Below are positions 1,139-45,961 of a stretch of 64,000 nt of DNA, piece by piece. Both the position numbers and the translations under genes were made by a program. Within the stretch, counting starts at the first letter, position 1. Each line of letters opens with the position of its first letter. The stretch spans positions 32,460,476 through 32,524,475 of the forward strand of contig NC_019865.2 of assembly GCF_002234675.1 (NCBI RefSeq), given 5' to 3'. This DNA is from Oryzias latipes (lineage: Eukaryota > Chordata > Actinopteri > Beloniformes > Adrianichthyidae). Below the pieces are notes generated by a model, which saw nothing but the letters and a program-made list of their open reading frames with translations, was not told the DNA's origin and searched no databases.

Positions 1139-2097
1139 ACAGGAAATACTGAAATACAAGGATTGAGGTCTGAATTTTCTGAATATTTGGAGGAGAAAAC
1201 AATCGATTTGGAAACAAGATCACAGATGAATAATCTCCGATTTGTTAATCTACCCAAAGGTGCAGAAGGCTCCAACGCATGTATGTTTTTGGAAAGCTGG
1301 CTGCCTGAAGCACTGGATATCACTCAACTTCTGCAGCCCCTAACCATAGAAAGAGCACATTGGATGGGACCGAAAAGGAGTTCAGACGCGCCAACAAGAA
1401 CACTGATCATGAGGTTTCATAACGTCAGTCAAAAGGATTTTGTGTCCATAGCAGCAAGATCCAAAAAGGTAATTCTATAAAAGAACCAGCGAGTGAGATT
1501 CGTAAACAGTTCGATACCGCATGCCAGCATCTGCGCCAACTTGGACTGGATATGTCCATATTTATGTTATGTTTAATTTTATGACCCACTCTTAACAAAA
1601 GTGTAAAGGAAACAGCAGGTTACAGTGATAATAAATACAGTTTGGTCTTAAATACTAGAGTGTGAATTAGGGTCTGAGGTTTATGTTCAGTACAGTGAAA
1701 AATATTACTACACAGGCTGTCATTTTATGTTAAACAATTTTTAACACTATTTTAAACACATTTAAGAGTTGTATCTACTTACTTTTTGTTACTATTAACA
1801 TTGAAAATGGATACATTTACTTTATTTATATTTCATTTTTTACTTTTATTTTATTTTTTATTTATACCTCACACAAAACGGTAAACATAGCATCTGATTG
1901 CATTTCTAAAGGATAGAACGAGACTATCAAACTGGTGAATGTCTATGGGCCTAACATAGATGATGACAAATTTTTTACAAACCTTTTTTAACAATTTCTT
2001 CATTCCCAAGAAATAGTATCATAGGAGGAGAGTGGAATTGTGACTTGGATCCCTCTTTGGATAGATCACCTGGATCTGACCAAACTCACCACAGAAG
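1139..2097 (+). mobile_element. L1-type LINE fragment (ORF1 C-terminal part and endonuclease remnant)
   Basis: The frame at 1163-1480 encodes an L1 ORF1-like segment: a short helix ending in SQMNNLRF, then an RRM-like stretch (NLRFVNLPKGAEGSN, IERAHWMGPKR, RTLIMRFHN). About 430 bp of AT-rich sequence follows. Near 1920-2090 there are endonuclease remnants (KLVNVYGPN and IIGGEWN motifs) with frame breaks. No RT remains. It is a degenerate, internally deleted LINE copy cut off on the right by a hAT end at 2098. Confidence 0.65.
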
Positions 2098-2320
2098 CAG
2101 TGGCGCCTCCAGAAATTGTTCATGGGGGTGGCCGGTAGGGGGCCACATTAAATCTTGGGGTGGCAAACAAAAACCCTGACCCATATTTTTAAAATTCATT
2201 GTACTAAACGTAGTAAAACAACCTTTAGAAAACCAACAGAAAGTTAAATGCCGACTGATACTTTGTAGAACATTAACTTTTAGTAGATACTACTATAGAT
2301 TCTAGTAGATATCATCAGAT

Positions 2321-3106
2321 CAGTGTTTTTCAACCTTTTTGAGCCACTGCACACTTTAACCTTGACAAAAATCCTGTGTGTATGATCTGCAGCCCCTCCA
2401 CAATCTCACATGCATTTTTGTGATAATTGTGGTAGAAAAAGATGGAAGTTGCAGCTGTTTTTCTAAAAGATGGAATAAAAGTTAAGTTAGAAGATTTAAA
2501 AAACGTTTGATGTGTGTTTGTTGTTTTTTCAAGACGTTACGAGGAGAGACTCATTGTGCGCCGAGATGCTGTCTCTTTAACCCAATGCATCATGGGAGAT
2601 GTAGTGATGGCAGACAGACTAGCGCCTCTGAGCTTCTTTGTTTTATTCACTTGTTCCACGGTCTGACACCGGATTCTGTGGAAAGCTACACCGCTAAAGA
2701 CGAGCTTTGGCTGGTATTTTTGTTAGAACTGAGAGACTTTATGAGCTTAATCGAATCAAGGGTGTGAAAACTTTAACCACTTCTGATTGGTCAGACTGAG
2801 GACATGTGATTAAGCCTCCAAGAATGATTGGTGGAGACAGTAAAAGGGGCGGGACTTTTCAGAAAACAGTTAATGCTGGAGTTAAATCGTGGTACCGTCA
2901 TTCTTATCAAAATGTCTTTAATAGAATCAAAAAAACACTAAGAAAAAAGTATTTTACGATCTCTCATATTCCTAACTTCTCAGTGTTTTATCAGGGTTTG
3001 TTTGGATGAACACAGAGCTGAAATCCTGGAGATGGGAAATGTTTTTAGATCAGTTAATGAGGGCATCTCCCACGGCACACCTGACCACACTGGTTGAAAA
3101 ACACTG
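2321..3106. mobile_element. Non-autonomous hAT element, family A copy 1 (oldest-looking)
   Basis: Bounded by CAGTGTTTTTCAACC at 2321 and its exact inverse GGTTGAAAAACACTG at 3092-3106. Flanking octamers CATCAGAT and CATTAGTA match at 5 of 8 positions, as for a decayed 8-bp hAT target duplication. The interior resembles the copies at 30873-31732 and 60109-60993, including a segment with CACATGTGATTAAG and a GGGGCGGGACTTTTC stretch. The interior has diverged: the terminal tandem GTGTGCCG motifs are largely lost. No transposase is encoded. Confidence 0.8.
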
Positions 3107-3319
3107 CATTAGTAGATACTACTATACTGATATATTTTTATTTGTTTTGTTTCTATTTCATGCTTAGGTCTGTCTGCTTGGGGTGTTCGACTTTTGACAA
3201 TTGAAATCAGTTGTTCTGAAATAAAAATAACAATACCCTTCCATGGTAATTATTAATTATTTCTGTAGACATTTCTTTTCAGGCTAATAAACATAAAGCA
3301 GTTTTATTAATAGGGCAAC

Positions 3320-4950: not shown

Positions 4951-7900
4951 TTAGACATCAGGAATATCACTCAGGGTGTCATAAATTGTTATGGCTTTAG
5001 GTGAGTCGATTAACTTTATGGATTTTAAGTATAAATTGACCTCATTATTAAAGAAGTTAAAGCTGGGGTGGCATTTCTGTAACCTATTTTTGTGTATAAA
5101 AAACTTGGCTAAACATAACACAGTATTGATACATACATTATTTACATTGTTGTGTAGTGACAGGCCAAAGATTATGACTTCTTTGGAAAAGAAGTCCATG
5201 ATGAATGGAAATTTATGTCTTAACCATTTGTAAACATCCAACCAAAACACTTGTACAACATCACACAGGAAAAATATGTGGTCGATGTCTTCAACAGCAG
5301 TTTGGCAGAAGGAACAGCTGTTGTCATCAATGTTGAAACGTAATCTAAGTAATTCTTTGGAAGGATAGATATCATTCATAATTTTGAAGTGTGTTTCTTT
5401 AACTTTTGGGGGAATAGGAAGTTTCATGAAATCGGTTCTTAATTTAATAACAACATTTTGTTCAAATTTCTGCAGTATATTATTTTTGTTTTGTCGACCA
5501 GGAAAAAACCTTTCAATGAACCAATTTCTGATAAATGAGTTATTACATTTTCTGTCCATTAGAGGGCATCCTTCAATTGACAATGTGGCTAACTGTGGTT
5601 TTATCCTTAAATGTGTCATTGTGTTCCTTGTTAGATATACAAATTCTCGAGGAAGAGAATTGCGTACTTTTAAAAATTCTGAAATAGGAGGATTAAAGTT
5701 ATGTCTTAAACAAAATTGCTCATAATCTAATAAATTTCCCTCCGTATCCATCAGATCAGACACCGACCAGACACCTCTGTCAAACCATTCAGCACAAAAC
5801 ATAGATTTGTTTCTGTGGAGGATGTATCTGTTGTTCCAAATGATATTTGAGTGTGGTGAGAAATTATGCACATACAAGATTTTCCAGTATAGCAGAATTT
5901 GTTTGTGGAACTCTGATAATGCTATAGGGAGCTTATTAATGTCAAAATCACTAATAAGCACCAACTTTAACCCGCCTAATTTGTTAAATAAATAATTTGG
6001 GATACAAAACCAGAAGGATTGGTTGTGTTTGATCCACGATTTCAACCAGTTTATTTTCAGGGTTCCGTTAAGACAGTCAAAGTCAATAACTTTGAGACCC
6101 CCATCCTTAAATTCTTTGACCATATAGTTTTTTTTCATGTAATGAGGCTTGTTTCTCCAAATAAAGTTAAACGTCATTTGGTTGATGGATTTTATCATTT
6201 TGTTTGGGATGGCATTAGAGTAAGATGGATAAATACATCTAGACAAACCCTCCATCTTTGTCAGACAGATGCAGCAGCCATGTGTCTCTTTGGAGCCACA
6301 TATTCAACCTCGTCTTACATTCATCAAGTTTTTCACCCACATTCCTTGATTGGCTTATTTTTTGGTCTTTGTTGATATAGATGCCCAAGTATTTAATTTC
6401 TGATTTAATGGGAATCTGATTGATTTCTTTTAAGGGTGTGTCATGAATAGCCAACAGTTCACATTTCTTTAAGTTTAAGTTTAACCCTGATGCTTTGGAA
6501 AAGTGTTTGACTTTTTCAATAGCTGCTTTAATTTGATGCTCATCTTTTAAAAACAGTGTTGTGTCGTCTGCTAACTGGCTAATAATGATCTCTGTGCCCA
6601 AGACATTTAACTTTTTGATTTCACTACAATTCTTAATATAAATAGCCAACATTTCAGTAGCTAATAAGAACAGATATGGAGAGATGGGACAACCTTGAGG
6701 GATTCCTACATCAACTTTGAAACTTGGGGTGGTGCCATTAGAAAGGATAATACAGCTATTGATATTCTGATATAGACCATAGATCAGGTTTCTAAATTTA
6801 GTACCAAAACCAAAATTTTCCAGTGCTGTCATTATAAACGGATGCTCCACTGAATCAAAGGCCTTGTAAAAATCCAGAAAGAGAATAAATCCATTATCTT
6901 TTATAAGGTGTCGGTATTCAATGATGTCCATAACCAGTCTTATATTATTATGAATTGAACGGCCCTTCAGAAAACCAGATTGTGTTTCCGCAATAAGTTC
7001 TGAAAGTCCCGTCTGGAGACGAGAAGCGAAAATGTACGTTAATAATTTGTAGTCTGAATTTCTTAAGGTGATAGGTCTTCTGTTGTCTATAAGTCTAGGA
7101 TCCTTGTCAGGTTTTGGGATAGAAACTATAACCCCATGTTTCATTGTGGTTGGAAGTGTGCACGTTTCAAAGATTTCCAAAAAGACTTGATGCAGTAAAT
7201 TTCTGATATCTTCCCAAAAGTGTCTATAAAAGTCGCCTGTGAGCCCATCTGAACCAGGAGATTTATTGAGAGAGAGTCGACTAATGACAGCATCAAGCTC
7301 ACAGATTAAAAGTTGTTTATCGCATGTTTGTTTAAAATTGTCGTCTATTTTGGGGATGTGTTGCGTAATCTCTTTTATAAAGTTGTCACAGTCTGTCCTT
7401 GAAAATTTAGAGCTGTAAAGGTGGCTATAAAATCTGTAAATTTCTGAGGATATAGCCTTTTCATCAGTAATTTCTATATCATTCACTAGAAGTGACTTTA
7501 GGCTGTTCCTTTTTTGCCTTCTTTTCTCCAGGCTGCAAAAATATGCTGAATTTTTTTCGCCTTCTTCTATCCATCTTGCTCTGGATCTGATGTATGCTCC
7601 TCGGGCTCTCTGAGTATAAAGCTCATCTAATTTAGATTGTAGGTTTAATATCTGTTGTCTATCATCCTCAGACGGGTTAGGTTTACAACAAAGATCATTC
7701 AGCTGTTTTATTATGTCCAGCTCTTTTTTATCCAGATTTGATTTTAACTTTTTACTAAATGAAATTGAGAGTTTACGAATTCTGTATTTAAGGTATTCCC
7801 ATTTTCTGACCGGGGAATCAAGTTCTTCAGATGTCTCTATTTCTGAAATCAGTGATTTAATTTCTTGGCAATAATCAATATTTTTAATAAGGCTGGAGTT

Positions 7901-8678
7901 GAATTTCCAGTACTTATTCAAGTACTTTATACTGTTTTTGGGTTTAATGTACAATATTACGCTACAATGGTCTGTTAGCGGTGCTGCTGATATGTTACAT
8001 TTAACTTCATGACATAACAAGTGATTTGAAATTAACCAATGATCAATTCTTGATTTTAACTTATAATTGGAATTGAACCATGTGAACTGAATTATACCTG
8101 GATTAAGGTGTCTCCATGTGTCAGTTAAGCCTTGACCGTCGCAGAAATTGTTAAATGTTCCATTAGGGTGACTAGAATCAAAATTAGAGGGAAATCTGTC
8201 CATCCAGTCATCTTGCACTAGATTCAAGTCCCCTCCCACAATGATATTATTAAATGAATATGCTAATCTGAGTTGGTCCAACTGTAATGAAATTTGCTCC
8301 AATAAATTTTTATTCTCTTTGATGTTATTGTAGCCATATATGTTAACCAGGATGAATTTTAAATTATCAATATCTATTATGATGATCAGCCAGTGACCGT
8401 GTGCATCTGCTATATGGGAAACAATTTTGCCTTGGAAGTTTTTGAGAAGTATAGCGACTCCTGCCGATCTGGAATTGCCATGGCTGAAAAAAACCTTGTC
8501 CCCCCATTGCTGAGACCAAAATGATTTATCTTCATTTGTAGAGTGCGTTTCTTGTAAAAAAAAAAAAATCAACATTTTTCCCTTTACAAAACAAAAAAAA
8601 ACTTTTTCTCTTTGTTAGATCTCTTAGACCTCTGGCATTTAAAGAAAGTAAAGAAATACCTGTTTTAAGGTGCAACAT
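4951..8678 (-). pseudogene. LINE ORF2 (endonuclease and reverse transcriptase), frameshifted
   Basis: The likely start is the ATG at 8678-8676, leading into SLLSLNARGLRDL, an AP endonuclease N-terminus. A run of 13 T (about 8557-8569) shifts the frame before LQETHS. From there to 6239 the frame is open: endonuclease motifs NIYGYN, GGDLNLVQD, SRIDHWLIS and LTDH, then RT motifs SPGSDGLTGDFY, FLDFYKAFDSVEHP, GIPQGCPISPYLF and SQLADDTTLF. A second shift near 6255-6300, after LQRD, moves the frame to TKMEGLSR and on to 4951. The C-terminal part has a CSFCQ...DHIFFLC zinc-knuckle-like motif. Catalytic residues appear retained; only the reading frame is broken. Confidence 0.85.
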
Positions 8679-13703: not shown

Positions 13704-15208
13704 TTAATCAACACAAATAGAACAAATATGTATGACAGGAACAATAGTCATAACAACAACAACAATGTCAGGGGATGGTACATGTATTACAAAAAGATTA
13801 CATATGCTATGCATTGAAAATATTAAGAGACAGAGAGTTTTCATAAATATGTATAGCTTTTTTTTTAAACTATTAGAAATAGTATGTAAATAAGATTCTA
13901 ATTCTTTAATTATTAAAGGGAAAAAAAGTTGTGATGAAGAAAATTTTGATTTGTGAATATGAAATTTACCAAATATTATAATTAGATTAATTGCCAATTT
14001 TACGTTTGATCTTATATTCTTTTCGTGTAGGCCAAATATGATATGTTCAAATTTTATCTGATATTGTGAGTCTAATTTATAATTTATAAAACGTGCACAA
14101 TCTTTCCAAAGTTTTTTAGTAGTATTACAGTTCCAAAATAGGTGACTGATTGTTTCTGGGTGTTCTTTACAAAAGGTACAGTTGGGGTCAATTGTCTTCT
14201 TATATCTGAGCATGTATTGATTAGTGGGATAGATTCTATGTAGGAGTTTGAAGGACACGTCTCTCATCATGTTATTAATTAATAATTTCTGATGCAGGGT
14301 CCAAACATTTTTCCAGGGCAAGTCAGGAATAAATTTTCTCCAATAAAAAACAGCAGAGGAACAGAAATAACATTTTGCTGAAACACGTATGATCTTGTTA
14401 TTTTTTCTGGCACAGTTGAAACAGGATTTTCCAATAGTGGTGTCACTTAGAGATATGAAGGGAATATTTGCATCAAGTACAGTATTTATAAAGAGTTCAC
14501 AGATTTCATTAGTGACAGCATCAAAAACAATGGCATACTCTTTAGGAGGAACAGCAAGGTTGTATTTAAGGTTAAATTCTTCATATCTGAGTAATTGACC
14601 ATTGTGGTTAAAGAGCTGACCCACCAGTAGGATATTATTGTCAAACCAATTATTGTAAAATAAAGAATTGTTCTTGTAAAGGATATATCTATTATTCCAA
14701 ATAAAAAACTTATGAGGGGAAAAATTGTGTTTATAGATAAGTGCCCATGAACGAAGAGTTTGTCTGTGAAAAGCAGAAAGTTTCACTGGGATTTTGTCGA
14801 TATTATAATGACAAAGCAGAAGAAAATGGAAACCACCTACTTTAGCAAACATGTGATGAGGGAAAATATTCCAAATGGAGAGTGGATTTTTTAAATATGA
14901 CTTAATCCAGTTTATTTTAAAAGTATTATTTAAAGTAGTAAAATCAAGAAAATTTAGGCCTCCTTTTTCATAGGAGTTCATTAATACAGATTTTTTTAAA
15001 TAATGAAAACGGTTTTTCCAGATGAAGTTTAGCAGCATTTGATCAATAGATTTAAGAGTCTGATTGTCCAGGTGCAGAGAAAGAGCAGAGTAAGTTAGTC
15101 TAGAAATCCCTTCTGCTTTGGAGAGTAAAATCCTTCCTCTCAGACTCAGGTCTCTCTGAAGCCATTGGTTAAAACATTTCTTGGCTTTATCAATGAGGGG
15201 AGTGAAAT
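13704..15208 (-). pseudogene. LINE ORF2 C-terminal fragment (downstream of the RTE)
   Basis: About 500 codons in one open minus-strand frame from the RTE junction to 13704. It starts FTPLIDKAKKCFNQWLQRDL, the segment just after the RT domain in this family, and continues through the C-terminal region with a zinc-knuckle-like CTFCKEHPETISHLFWNC motif. It parallels the C-terminal part of the LINE at 4671-9847 but is clearly diverged from it. It lacks RT and endonuclease in cis and is only a remnant. Confidence 0.8.
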
Positions 15209-18200
15209 CTAGCCACAGGGGTTGCAAGCCAGTTGCCTCTGTGCCGGTCCCAAGCCCGGATAAATAGAGAGGGTTGCGTCAGGAAGGGCATCCGGCGTAA
15301 AAATTGCCAAAATAACCATGCGAATCATCCACAACACTTTAGACATACCGGATCGGTCGAGGCCCGGGTTAACAACGACCGCCACCGATGCTGTTAACCT
15401 ACAGGGTGTCGGTGGAAATTTGACTACTGTTGGTCGAAGAAAGAGGGGAGGCAGAAGGGTCCGTTGCCAGAGAGAGAAGGGAAAAGGCAGGAACATAGGT
15501 TTGAGAATAGGGACTCTTAACGTTGGCACAATGACAGGGAAAGGCAGAGAGCTGGCAGACATGATGGAGAGAAGGAAGGTAGATGTACTGTGTGTGCAGG
15601 AGACAAGGTGGAAGGGCAGCAAGGCACGTAGTATTGGAGGAGGATACAAACTGTTCTATCATGGTGTTGATAGGAAGAGAAATGGGGTAGGTGTGATTCT
15701 GAAGGGGGAGTTTGTAAACAGTGTTCTAGAGGTGAAAAGAGTCTCAGACAGGATGATGAGCTTAAAGTTAGAAATTGAAGGGGTGATGGTGAATGTAGTC
15801 AGTGGGTATGCGCCACAGGTTGGCTGTGAGTTAGAAGTGAAGGAGAGATTCTGGAGTGAGTTGGATGAGGTCATAGAGAGTTTCCCCAGAGGAGAGAGAG
15901 TTGTTATTGGAGCAGACTTTAATGGGCATGTTGGTGAGGGCAATAGAGGTGATGAGGAGGTGATGGGCAGGTTTGGTGTGAAGGAAAGGAATCTGGAGGG
16001 ACAGATGGTGGTGGACTTTGCGAAGAGGATGGAAATGGCTGTAGTCAACACTTACTTCCAGAAGAGAGAGGAACATAGAGTGACATACAGAAGTGGAGGT
16101 AGGAGTACCCAGGTGGACTACATCCTATGTAGACGAGGTCATTTGAGAGAGGTTATTGACTGCAAAGTGGTGGTAGGAGAGAGTGTAGCCAGACAGCACC
16201 GCATGGTGGTGTGTAAGATGACTCTGGAGGCCAGGAAGAAGAAGAGAGGGAAAACAGAAAAGAAGACCAAGTGGTGGAAGCTACAGAATGAAGAAACTTG
16301 TGAGGAATTTAGGCAGAAGTTGAGACAGGTTCTGGGTGGTCAGGATGAGCTTCCAGAGGACTGGGAAACTACAGCAGAGATTATCAGGGAAACAGGTAGG
16401 AAGGTGCTAGGTGTGTCATCTGGAAAGAGGAAAGACGGTAAAGAGACTTGGTGGTGGAATGAGGAAGTACAGGAATGCGTCCAGAGGAAGAGGTTGGCTA
16501 AAAGGAAGTGGGATGTAGAAAGGACTGAGGAAGGTAGACAGGAGTACAAGGAAGCGCAGCGTAAAGTGAAGAGAGAGGTGGCAAAGGCCAAACAGAAAGC
16601 TTACGATGAGCTATATGACAGGTTAGACACAAAGGAAGGAGAGAAGGACTTGTACAGGCTAGCCAGACAGAGAGACAGAGATGGGAAGGACGTGCAACAG
16701 ATAAGGGTGATTAAGGACAGAGATGGAAAGGTGCTAACAACCCAGGAGAGTGTACAGAAAAGATGGAAGGAGTATTTTGAGGAGCTGATGAACGTGGAAA
16801 ATGACAGGGAAAGAAGGGAGGAAGATGTGGTTGTTGTGGAGCAGGAAGTAGCAGAGATTGGAAAGGAGGAGGTTAGGAAGGCTCTGAAAAGGATGAAGAG
16901 CGGAAAGGCCGTTGGTCCTGATGACGTACCTGTGGAGGTATGGAAGTGCCTAGGAGAGACAGCAGTGGAATTTCTAACAAGGTTGTTCAATAGGATTTTA
17001 GAGAGTGAGAAGATGCCTGAGGAATGGAGGAGAAGCGTTCTGGTTCCGATCTTTAAGAACAAGGGTGACACGCAGAACTGCAGCAACTATAGAGGAATAA
17101 AGTTGATGAGCCACACAATGAAGCTGTGGGAAAGAGTAGTGGAAGCCAGGCTTAGGAAGAAGGTGGAGATCTGTGAGCAGCAGTATGGTTTCATGCCCCG
17201 TAAGAGCACCACTGATGCCATTTTTGCTTTGAGAATGTTGATGGAAAAGTACAGAGAAGGTCAGAAGGAGCTGCATTGTGTGTTCGTAGATTTAGAGAAG
17301 GCGTATGACAGGGTGCCGAGGGAGGAGCTGTGGTACTGTATGAGGTCGTCTGGAGTGGCAGAGAAGTATGTCAGAGTAGTTCAGGACATGTATGAGAGAA
17401 GTATGACGGTGGTGAGATGTGCTGTAGGTCAGACAGAGGAGTTCAAGGTGGAGGTGGGACTACACCAAGGATCAGCTTTGAGTCCTTTTTTGTTTGCTAT
17501 GCTGATGGACAGGCTGACAGACGAGGTAAGACAGGAATCTCCCTGGACAATGATGTTTGCGGATGACATTGTAATTTGCAGTGAGAGTAGAGAGCAGGTG
17601 GAGGAACAGCTAGAGAGGTGGAGGTTTGCTCTGGAAAGAAGAGGCATGAAGGTCAGTCGTAGTAAGACAGAATACATGTGTCTGAACGAGAGGGATCAAG
17701 GTAGAAGCGCTAGGTTACAGGGGGCTGAGGTGAAGAAGGTGCAGGAGTTTAAGTACTTGGGGTCAACAGTTCAGTGTGATGGGGAGTGTGGAAAAGAGGT
17801 GAAGAGGCGAGTGCAGGCAGGTTGGAGCGGGTGGAGGAAAGTGTCAGGAGTGTTGTGTGACAGAAGAGTGCCAGCAAGACTCAAAGGAAAGGTGTACAAG
17901 ACAGTGGTGAGACCAGCTCTGCTCTATGGGTTAGAGACGGTAGCAGTGAGACAGAGACAAGAGGCTGAGATGGAGGTAGCGGAGATGAAGATGTTGAGGT
18001 TCTCCTTAGGAGTGACCAGGTTAGACAGGATAAGGAACGAGTACATCAGAGGGACGGCTCAGGTTGCCTGTGTTAGCGACAAAGTCAGAGAAGCCAGACT
18101 GAGATGGTTTGGACATGTTCAGAGGAGGGATAGTGGATATATTGGTAGAAGGATGTTGGAGATGGAGCTGCCTGGCAGGAGGGCAAGAGGACGGCCAAAG

Positions 18201-18333
18201 AGGAGATACATGGATGTCTTAACAGAGGACATGAAGTTGGCTAATGTTAGGGTAGAAGATGTCCATGATAGAGTGAGGTGGAAAAGGATGATTCGCTGTG
18301 GCGACCCCTGATGGGAAAAGCCGAAAGAGAAAG
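15209..18333 (+). mobile_element. Complete-looking RTE-clade LINE with 20-bp TSD
   Basis: A 20-bp direct repeat (ATCAATGAGGGGAGTGAAAT) at 15189-15208 and 18334-18353 is identical on both sides and brackets 3,125 bp. The element begins CTAGCCACAGGGGTTGCAAG, has a roughly 110-bp 5' leader, one 997-codon ORF, and a very short 3' end finishing GGGAAAAGCCGAAAGAGAAAG, without a poly(A) tail, as usual for RTE elements. The exact duplication and open ORF indicate a young insertion. It interrupts an older LINE ORF2. Leader and tail segments recur in the relic at 25110-25885 and in the SINE at 45425-45716. Confidence 0.93.
15318..18311 (+). CDS. RTE LINE polyprotein: AP endonuclease and reverse transcriptase
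   Basis: A single 997-residue open frame with no internal stop. Residues about 60-300 are an AP-type endonuclease: IGTLNVGTMTGKG, VDVLCVQETRW, VIGADFNGHVG, TYRSGGRSTQVDYIL and QHRMVV. Residues about 510-760 are the RT: MKSGKAVGPDDVPVEVW, CSNYRGIKLM, FVDLEKAYDRVPREELW, GLHQGSALSPFLFAML and MMFADDIVIC, which holds the catalytic FADD box. The C-terminus has RWFGHVQRRDSGYIGRRML and a basic RRARGRPKRRYMDVL. These activities nick target DNA and copy the RNA at the nick. The length fits one-ORF RTE elements. Such ORFs are often misnamed craniofacial development protein 2. The start is the first ATG of the frame; an upstream non-ATG start is possible. Confidence 0.92.
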   Translation: MRIIHNTLDIPDRSRPGLTTTATDAVNLQGVGGNLTTVGRRKRGGRRVRCQREKGKGRNIGLRIGTLNVGTMTGKGRELADMMERRKVDVLCVQETRWKGSKARSIGGGYKLFYHGVDRKRNGVGVILKGEFVNSVLEVKRVSDRMMSLKLEIEGVMVNVVSGYAPQVGCELEVKERFWSELDEVIESFPRGERVVIGADFNGHVGEGNRGDEEVMGRFGVKERNLEGQMVVDFAKRMEMAVVNTYFQKREEHRVTYRSGGRSTQVDYILCRRGHLREVIDCKVVVGESVARQHRMVVCKMTLEARKKKRGKTEKKTKWWKLQNEETCEEFRQKLRQVLGGQDELPEDWETTAEIIRETGRKVLGVSSGKRKDGKETWWWNEEVQECVQRKRLAKRKWDVERTEEGRQEYKEAQRKVKREVAKAKQKAYDELYDRLDTKEGEKDLYRLARQRDRDGKDVQQIRVIKDRDGKVLTTQESVQKRWKEYFEELMNVENDRERREEDVVVVEQEVAEIGKEEVRKALKRMKSGKAVGPDDVPVEVWKCLGETAVEFLTRLFNRILESEKMPEEWRRSVLVPIFKNKGDTQNCSNYRGIKLMSHTMKLWERVVEARLRKKVEICEQQYGFMPRKSTTDAIFALRMLMEKYREGQKELHCVFVDLEKAYDRVPREELWYCMRSSGVAEKYVRVVQDMYERSMTVVRCAVGQTEEFKVEVGLHQGSALSPFLFAMLMDRLTDEVRQESPWTMMFADDIVICSESREQVEEQLERWRFALERRGMKVSRSKTEYMCLNERDQGRSARLQGAEVKKVQEFKYLGSTVQCDGECGKEVKRRVQAGWSGWRKVSGVLCDRRVPARLKGKVYKTVVRPALLYGLETVAVRQRQEAEMEVAEMKMLRFSLGVTRLDRIRNEYIRGTAQVACVSDKVREARLRWFGHVQRRDSGYIGRRMLEMELPGRRARGRPKRRYMDVLTEDMKLANVRVEDVHDRVRWKRMIRCGDP

Positions 18334-18353
18334 ATCAATGAGGGGAGTGAAAT

Positions 18354-24396: not shown

Positions 24397-39206
<14,810 letters not shown>

Positions 39207-43608: not shown

Positions 43609-45191
43609 CACGTAAGCAATGAACACGTTGAGAGCGTGTTCTGTGTGGAGCAAAGCATGTGATGAGAATACATCAGGAACAGGCTCAGACCATGGAAGGC
43701 CACGCCTCTCCCGTGGCCTTTCATGGTCCCTGATTGGTTGACATGACTCATCGTCTTTGCCAAAAGTCCGATTTTTTAACTCTAGACACGCTGCAATGCC
43801 CAAATTGTGCTGCTGCCCCACTGATGTGCTGCACCTGACGCTGGAGTCACGCTTCAGGACCGCAGATCATGTCTGTACATTGACTTAACATTGAAACTGG
43901 ATGCATCTGTTGGGATGTGCAGCAGTTTGGTTTTCTACTGTTCACTGGCGCATGTTCACCACCTGCATTTGGAAAAGCTCGGTGTGAAATGTCACAGTGG
44001 TGTAAATCTGGTGAATCTTGTGCCAGACTTTTTCTTTCACAGCTCTATTCTGATAGATGAAAAACTTGGTGTCATAGAATTCCATCCAGGCACAAACTGC
44101 AGTTAGTCATTTCTCCTCCATGATCAATTTTTTTTAACCGAATGGCACTTCAGTGTTTTGAAAAACGCCCCATCCACACATCACTTCCAGATCCATGTCC
44201 CTGATTGGTCAAAGTTTCTACTGTTTGACCTACAACTATTTGAAAGTTCAGGTGGTTGAACTTTCTGGGTACGTTTACTGAAACCTGGTTTGTTAGTAGA
44301 GCCTGAGAACGGACGTAAAAACTCGCGTAGCGTCGCATGAACGGTTTTGAACGCAGAAGCCAGAACTGTGGCTTAATGGTCGTTTACATAGACTTTACAT
44401 TGAAAGTGGCTGCTTGAACGCAAGTTGACACGGCAGGTGGAAGTGTAGCTTCAGAGTTTGTGTATTTTGGAGAGTTTTCCTCTTGGAAAAATTCATTAAG
44501 GAGGTAACTAGTTCTGGTGGCTTCAGATCAGGTTCATTGTATTTAAACATTTAGCTGTTTATAGATTTAAGTTGCTGGTCCATGTTTTTCCTTTAGTTCC
44601 TGGAGTATTATGACGCTTCTGTCATTATCTATACGTCTTATATGTTTTATGTTTCATGCTCTTCCTGACACTACCCACTGATTTTACCGGGCTTGATGCC
44701 GGCACAAGCAGGACTCTGTTGAGGCTGCATTTATTTATTTATTTTATGTAATGCCTGTCTATTTGTCTGTCTGTCCATCCTTATGTTTTTGTCTTTTCTT
44801 CAATACATTTATTTTATTTTTTTGTTTAATGAGTATTATTTTTTTGTAGGGGAGGGGTGTAATTTGGGTTCCTTTGGATTGTTGTGGGCCATCACATTTG
44901 GGGGGGTAATCTCTTGGACGGGCACGGACACATCTATTAGACATCATGACTGACATCATGTGCTATGCATCTGTTGGACATCGGTTCATAGCGGTATGTT
45001 TCACATCGCCGTTTAGATCTCCAGCAGACAACTTTCCCACATCTAATCGTGTCACCATCCCATCATGCCCCGCGTGTTGTAAACAAGCCATGTTGGTAGT
45101 TCCTTCCCACCGGACACAAGATTTCTATTAGATAACTATTACACATCTATTGTAGGTGTCTACTGGACATGTCAGACATCTCTATACGGCC
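43609..45191. other. Unassigned intergenic stretch
   Basis: About 1.6 kb without a supported gene. A short palindrome, CCACGCCTCTCCCGTGG, lies at 43699-43715, and GTAAAAACTCGCGTAGCGTC near 44316 may mark a repeat. Frames on both strands are short and carry no domain. Confidence 0.35.
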
Positions 45192-45351
45192 TTTCCCAAC
45201 CCTGGTCCTCAGAAAAAACTGCCCTTCATTTTTAGAAAACAACTCAAACACACCTGCCCTTCATCGACAGATGAGCTGAATCAGGTGTGCATCGGCAGGG
45301 CAGCATGGAAAACGTCCAGGACAGTATTCCCCGAGGACCAGGGTTCGGAAA
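45192..45351. mobile_element. Short MITE with inverted ends
   Basis: About 160 bp starting TTTCCCAACCCTGGTCCTC and ending GAGGACCAGGGTTCGGAAA, an almost perfect inverted pair (one mismatch). The interior AACACACCTG...CAGGTGTG is also inverted. This pattern is common in fish genomes and fits a small non-autonomous DNA element; the superfamily is not assigned. Confidence 0.7.
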
Positions 45352-45424
45352 CACTCCTCTGTTAGATGTCTACCAATAGCGCCCTGCATACAGAGGTCTC
45401 CTACACATCTACCTGTCAACATCT

Positions 45425-45716
45425 TGTTGTTGGTCACCCTTCGGCATATCCCTTCAGGAGTCGCCACAGTGAATCAGCTTTCACTAATTTGCACTGGAGG
45501 TTTGGCAGAGATTTTTATGCCGGACGTCCTGCCTGACACTCTCCTGTATCTCATCCAGGCTGGGGACCGGTACAGGAGGACCCAGACTTGGGCCCCCTTG
45601 TGGCTACCTAGTGAGGCAGAAGCGTGAAGGGCTGAAGCTCATCGAGTCCCCTAGGAATTGAACCCTGATTTCCCATGTGCCAGTCCCTGACTGGCCAACT
45701 GAGCTATCCAGCCGCT
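45425..45716 (-). mobile_element. tRNA-derived SINE with RTE-derived body and tail
   Basis: Read on the minus strand, the head GCGGCTGGATAGCTCAGTTGG contains a perfect tRNA A box (TAGCTCAGTTGG), and about 35 nt later GGGTTCAATTCC is a B box, so it has a type 2 Pol III promoter. After the head, GGTAGCCACAAGGGGGCCCA, CCGGTCCCCAGCCTGGATGA and GACGTCCGGCATAAAAAT match the leader of the RTE at 15209. The tail GATTCACTGTGGCGACTCCT and GAAGGGATATGCCGAAGG match the RTE 3' end. It has no coding capacity. The shared 3' tail implies mobilisation by RTE enzymes. Confidence 0.85.
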
Positions 45717-45961
45717 ATAATTATTAGATGTCTATAGTGTTCTGCGTATACAGGTCTCTTGCACATTTACCTGTAGACATCTAATCTTTGGATACTTTTA
45801 GTTGTCATTTAGAGAACTTTGCGGGACTGTTGTTCCCTGTTTCTGTTGCTCCCAGAAAGAGACATTTGGGTTCCTTTCTAACTGACCAAAACCCACTGAG
45901 AGCCAGAAAGTCCCACTTCTCTGTTTAGAAAAACATATAATTTGTTTCTCTGGCCGTTATT

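Follow-up and report, generated by a model that had tools for sequence, protein, structure and literature searches.

A SINE copy on the minus strand at positions 45425–45716 of the 64-kb stretch of DNA analyzed here (the window) is very probably a tRNA-headed element whose body derives from an internally deleted RTE retrotransposon, joined to the remainder of the SINE probably at the end created by twister ribozyme cleavage, and in which the twister is presumably disarmed. Of the explanations considered, this one best accounts for the sequence comparisons as a whole. Read along the minus strand, the copy consists of a tRNA-like head with A and B boxes (45645–45715), a middle domain of unassigned origin (45610–45644), an RTE 5′ leader segment (45485–45609), an RTE 3′ tail (45434–45484), and an (AAC)n-type 3′ end (45425–45433), the last recognized both in the copy itself and in the consensus of its family. 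RNA folds of the head, leader, and tail were mostly no better than those of shuffled sequences, the exception being the SINE tail, for which only 2 of 200 shuffles folded equally well.

The head carries an A box, TAGCTCAGTTGG (45706–45695), and a B box, GGTTCAATTCC (45664–45654), at a spacing typical of tRNAs. These minus-strand boxes had been pointed out in a preliminary description of this DNA, and they proved to be the only pair at such spacing in the window; with a strict B box, the pair occurred in 0 of 100 shuffles, and with a loose B box, the mean was 0.05. Both boxes are canonical in the consensus, where the B box reads GGTTCGATTCC. ARAGORN reported no tRNA in the window at its default threshold and, with the threshold lowered to 60, a single doubtful tRNA on the strand opposite to the SINE. 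The Rfam tRNA model found nothing in this copy at an E-value of 10. As neither tool reported a tRNA on the strand of the SINE, the label “tRNA head” is based on the boxes and their consensus form. Such tRNA-type boxes would be expected to drive transcription of the SINE by Pol III.

The SINE belongs to a dispersed, multicopy family, of which the best 40 of 2670 first-look candidates were scored, spread over many contigs and including the window copy. A consensus of 315 nt was derived from the best 30 copies, again with that of the window among them; these are the copies most similar to the window copy rather than a random draw, and they show 87%–93% identity to the consensus with gaps excluded (89.7% for the window copy). 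The middle domain spans about 58 nt between head and leader in this consensus (positions 73–130), and about 23 nt of it are deleted in the window copy. The family could already bear a name in Repbase or Dfam, where its body may also have a better match. In viral contigs, neither the three DNA patterns nor the head pattern searched for gave a match, and a search of prokaryote genomes with one pattern and a single plasmid search were likewise negative.

A young, full-length element on the plus strand of the same window, RTE1 (15206–18333), served as the reference for the body of the SINE. A perfect 20-bp repeat lies on either side of RTE1 (15189–15208 and 18334–18353) and consists of 17 bp plus an AAT that doubles as the start of the element; excision of RTE1 restores a 360-codon frame of the LINE that hosts it. 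Its ORF of 997 amino acids (15318–18311) is open throughout and encodes an AP-type endonuclease and a reverse transcriptase; the 22 nt that follow the stop codon form a very short 3′ UTR. We take RTE1 to be a member of the RTE clade, a name based on its architecture and its 5′ twister. When its leader was used as a query, the best 40 of 1450 first-look candidates were scored and all were 100% identical, indicating that at least part of the RTE1 family is very young. Immediately upstream of the motif CTAGCC, the bases A, A, and T were found in 28, 29, and 30 of 30 RTE1 loci, respectively (AAT as a whole in 28), while the bases beyond are unconserved; the start of RTE1, AATCTAGCC, was therefore placed at 15206. 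All 30 loci match the leader from the first queried base, and 5′-truncated copies fall outside this sample. A protein search for relatives found none in viral contigs and recovered a 64%-identical RTE, L001, from prokaryote genomes. Although assigned to a Breoghania MAG, the contig carrying L001 probably represents contamination of eukaryotic origin. Another LINE is represented in the window by two adjacent frames at 4951–8575 (minus strand), which have endonuclease, reverse transcriptase, and zf-RVT domains.

The preliminary description had traced the body of the SINE to 2 segments of RTE1, a leader segment at 15209–15310 and a 3′ end at 18290–18328, and both were recovered. In the single copy, the leader matches 15210–15311 (74% over 109 columns, E 1e-10) and the tail matches 18289–18325 (86% over 37 bp, E 6e-8 against the element). 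The 2 matches are colinear and lie on one strand, and neither score was reached by any of 500 shuffles. The leader likeness was not lost in the consensus but strengthened: consensus positions 131–255 align to RTE1 15207–15327 with 80.2% identity over 126 columns (E 1.6e-25), and positions 264–302 align to the RTE1 tail with 92.3% identity over 39 columns (E 6e-12), so that across 30 copies identity is continuous at both RTE ends, with the ORF removed. A comparison of the SINE with the decayed tail of RTE2, an older element of the window, was nonsignificant, with 15 of 500 shuffles reaching the score.

These values bear directly on the possibility that the SINE borrowed an RTE tail alone and that the likeness of its leader reflects chance or low complexity. 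Such tail-only borrowing is a common pattern among SINEs, judging from the available part of PMC3747384, and a leader identity of 74% in a single copy would be compatible with it. The E-values of the leader in the single copy and in the consensus and the result of the 500 shuffles argue against it, however, as does the fact that the likeness begins at the RTE 5′ terminus and extends to the leaders of RTE2 and L001. The consensus comparison refutes this explanation, to which we assign next to no probability.

In the best model with a single deletion, RTE1 is kept up to 15327 and resumes at 18278, with 15328–18277, and thereby the ORF, gone. What the SINE retains is nt 2–122 and the last ~55 nt of the RTE, that is, the leader with the start codon and about two further codons, followed by the last codons of the ORF and the 3′ UTR. 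A recent internally deleted RTE1 was found at another locus (L058), where nt 1–128 (100% identity) are joined to nt 2030–3128 (99.3%) between 18-bp flanking repeats, and where the 5′ breakpoint nearly coincides, to within a few bases, with the one in the SINE; of the 30 RTE1 loci, this was the one case in which an exact RTE tail occurred within 1.5 kb of the leader. The comparisons support the earlier interpretation of the body as a bipartite RTE derivative. The idea of a deleted RTE fused to a tRNA holds as far as the 2 RTE ends and the missing ORF are concerned, but leaves out the middle module that lies between body and head.

The 5′ end of RTE1 matches the type-P1 twister ribozyme model (RF03160) at 15201–15277 on the plus strand with 50.2 bits (E 1.3e-10 for the stretch; 3.4e-8 when the whole window is taken). 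For the L001 leader, the same model gives 63.9 bits (E 2e-14). Since both scores are below the Rfam gathering score of 67.2, we call these leaders twister-like by homology; a default Rfam scan of the window listed nothing. The conserved 3′ core of the model, comprising 25 upper-case positions, is matched without gaps at 24 positions in RTE1 and at all 25 in L001. The P1 5′ strand of the RTE1 twister falls in flanking DNA, and across 30 RTE1 copies only 0 to 3 of the 4 P1 pairs are possible (with the register set by hand), which fits the scores below the cutoff. When L001 and RTE1 were compared with gaps allowed, they agreed at 25 of the 25 core positions (24 ungapped) and at 69 of 82 other leader bases (p = 0.036). 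Readings of the leader as an HDV-like or hammerhead ribozyme, made by eye, were dropped, as Rfam gave twister.

Twister ribozymes cleave between the U and the first A of a conserved U-A-A. The U-A-A of the model aligns at the start of young RTE1 copies, but the base preceding the expected cut is a T in only 14 of 30 RTE1 loci and an A in the RTE1 of the window, the U being located in the flank. Liu et al. 2021 is reportedly cited for twisters located at RTE 5′ ends. A twister-like RTE 5′ end is in any case already known: the available part of PMC7761336 describes twisters at this end that are truncated but active, and proposes a role for them in 5′-end processing. A further RTE-leader-like fragment is present in the window at 44633–44735 (minus strand), with a twister-like core that appears decayed by eye.

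Of the 2 RTE families compared, the one closer to the SINE is not that of RTE1. RTE2 (25085–25880, plus strand) is an old copy of the closer family that matches up to approximately codon 239 and then continues with the 3′ tail, and is thus itself internally deleted; no convincing target site duplication (TSD) was found around it. With RTE2 as a query, the best 40 of 124 candidates were scored and 30 loci were fetched, of which 16 had a usable leader; the other 14, the RTE2 of the window included, were dropped by limits on score or start. The majority row of these 16 RTE2-type leaders starts AATGTAGCC. Over 136 columns, the leader of the SINE agrees with this row at 112, whereas with RTE1 it agrees at 97 of 132; both counts include about 12 upstream columns. 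Judged by eye, the P2 helix is UGUA:UACA in both the SINE and the RTE2-type leaders, UCUA:UAGA in RTE1, and CUCA:UGAG in L001. The higher leader identity and the agreement in P2 together place the donor nearer to the RTE2 family. The proposal that the body came from the local RTE thus stands for the presence of RTE ends, but the nearer relative is the older RTE2 family. By these alignments, the enzyme that moves the SINE is likely a sibling of that of RTE1 rather than that of RTE1 itself, which corrects the likely helper family from RTE1 to RTE2-type.

The homology of the SINE to the RTE starts at RTE nt 2 (consensus A131), only 1–2 bases from the expected twister cut. Downstream of this junction, the leader of the window copy contains a relict of the twister core (45542–45571, minus strand), in which 5 of 25 conserved bases are changed in a gapped alignment and 9 of 25 in an ungapped one. 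With gaps, 20 of 25 core positions are kept, compared with 60 of 82 positions in the rest of the leader (p = 0.60), so that conservation of the core differs in neither direction from that of its surroundings. No twister match was obtained for the window SINE at E ≤ 10. Across all 30 copies, 2 changes stand out. At core position 10, A predominates in the RTE2-type leaders (13 of 16; the other 3 have a T, a C, and a gap), whereas C predominates in the SINE copies (27 of 30; of the other 3, 2 have T and 1 has A). An exact GAGGG is present in 10 of the 16 RTE2-type leaders and at that place in none of the 30 SINE copies, 6 of which contain the motif elsewhere. As the copies share ancestry, these lesion counts do not represent independent events, and each lesion probably arose once, in the founder of the SINE. 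The twister in the SINE looks damaged, with a presumable loss of activity.

A functional twister in the SINE would trim the head off some transcripts and thereby give rise to headless copies starting at the junction. P1 and P2 pairs can indeed be formed in most of the 30 copies and in the consensus, and among 20 loci drawn from the 29 nonwindow copies, 3 gave twister rows, with 32.0 bits (E 0.0055), 24.9 bits (E 0.62), and 22.0 bits (E 4). Moreover, a headless SINE body that starts near the RTE junction was found at locus L024 (1064–1188, minus strand). This headless body is a single case, however, which may be a 5′ truncation, and 2 conserved core features are changed in nearly all 30 copies, making a functional ribozyme improbable. 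It is somewhat more conceivable, though still unlikely, that the changes were already present in the donor RTE subfamily and carry no information on the head. One RTE2-type leader (L087) bears both changes, the A-to-C substitution and GCGGG in place of GAGGG, and in 6 of the 16 leaders GAGGG is inexact, in various ways. On the other hand, the A and the exact motif are found in most of these leaders and in their majority row, and RTE1 and L001 have retained both features. We therefore favor damage to the twister within the SINE lineage.

The mode of integration was compared through target duplications. TSDs of 13–15 bp, compared with the 20-bp duplication of RTE1, were found in 4 of the 30 SINE copies with scores of 12–14; the maximum score among 240 mismatched control pairs was 10, which a fifth copy equaled. 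Three of the 4 TSDs have a T|A start, as does that of RTE1, which agrees with the “TA” that closes the signature Tn-TA (PMC13295347, in the part available). For the window copy, no clean short TSD was found. It is bracketed by a direct repeat of 59–63 bp, of which one copy abuts the 3′ end of the SINE (45362–45424, minus strand) and the other lies beside its 5′ end (45724–45782, minus strand), the 2 being 76% alike. This may be either a long target duplication or an older repeat: a divergence of 24%, about twice the 10% distance of the copy from its consensus, fits a long target duplication, and the short TSDs of its relatives, only 13–15 bp, speak against one. A tandem array was rejected, as no good third copy was present leftward or in 45190–45359. 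Positions 44900–45189 show a weak likeness to the repeat, with a best inverted score above those of all 200 shuffles. Adjoining the SINE, 45190–45359 (minus strand) is a stretch of about 165 bp with inverted-repeat ends, perhaps a MITE.

Taken together, the data suggest the following origin. An RTE RNA would have lost its middle, keeping the 2 terminal segments now seen in the SINE, and twister cleavage would have produced the 5′ end of this internally deleted RNA. An older SINE, made of the head and the middle domain, would then have been joined at the cleaved end, probably via a template jump: reverse transcriptase may have run off the cleaved RTE 5′ end and jumped onto a Pol III RNA, placing the head at the cleavage site. 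The RTE-type 3′ end would recruit the endonuclease and reverse transcriptase of an RTE. As an intact twister would cut the head from the body, a successful SINE lineage would be expected to carry lesions in the twister core.

The order of assembly may also have been different. A headless bipartite RTE family could have gained its head later, or a tRNA SINE could have swapped in an RTE body, and we consider the chances of such an order to be evenly balanced. A chimera model has been published (PMC7245038, in the part available), and 2 loci are in line with a modular origin: the headless body at L024, and L029 (288–385, minus strand), in which head and middle domain run up to the RTE junction and are followed by DNA that is LINE-like by eye. 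Each of these is a single example, however. Beyond the favored origin of this one family by joining at a twister-cut end, we tentatively propose, with the balance leaning slightly against it, that twister-cleaved 5′ ends are a birth route of RTE-type SINEs in general, whose spread would need a broken twister. If so, fixed lesions in the twister cores of SINEs would be a mark of selection, and similar lesions would be expected wherever an RTE SINE has retained the RTE 5′ terminus.

The bipartite architecture as such is already known and ordinary for RTE-type SINEs. Bov-tA of ruminants, for example, also contains 5′ BovB material. Bov-tA and Bov-A2 are both BovB-related; in the available part of Table 1 of PMC3747384, Bov-tA has a head from tRNA-Glu and a tail from Bov-B, and Bov-A2 combines the BovB 5′ end with a Bov-B tail; both differ from the present SINE in their Bov-B donor, and Bov-A2 additionally consists of 2 monomers without Pol III promoter sequences (PMC3747384 and PMC4324840, in part). 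The same table includes headless SINEs with both RTE ends, and the available fish part of it contains no pairing of a SINE with an RTE. SINEs that have both a tRNA head and both RTE ends have been described in hagfish (PMC7245038) and in birds (PMC4844689), as far as the accessible text of these sources goes. ManaSINE1 and the other AviRTE SINEs of birds differ in having a tRNA-Glu head and about 800 bp of AviRTE 5′ UTR (PMC4844689, in part); the text covered does not place their junction with respect to the RTE 5′ end.

A close likeness is seen in the hagfish elements SINE2-9_EBu, SINE2-10_EBu, and SINE2-1_EBu, which share a tRNA head, a middle domain, and an RTE 5′ UTR and 3′ end, where in SINE2-9 and SINE2-10 both ends come from one RTE (PMC7245038, in the text covered). 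That source further notes that RTE elements often give rise to derivatives with internal deletions, some of which acquire heads, mostly from tRNAs. The hagfish SINEs are thus alike in their internal deletion and chimera model, and SINE2-1 has TSDs similar to those of SINE1-1, which measure about 17 bp. They differ in their RTE family and possibly in their middle domain, which is UCON3, and a ribozyme is not mentioned in the text covered. The RTE twisters of PMC7761336, in turn, belong to RTE retrotransposons, rather than to a SINE with an inherited and altered ribozyme, according to the part available. A link between a junction at a ribozyme cut and a broken ribozyme was not found in the literature covered, of which the ribozyme-directed share was slight and leaves absence unproven. 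Relative to these known systems, what is new here is a SINE whose junction lies at the expected cut of an RTE twister, together with a ribozyme that is seemingly damaged in the SINE.
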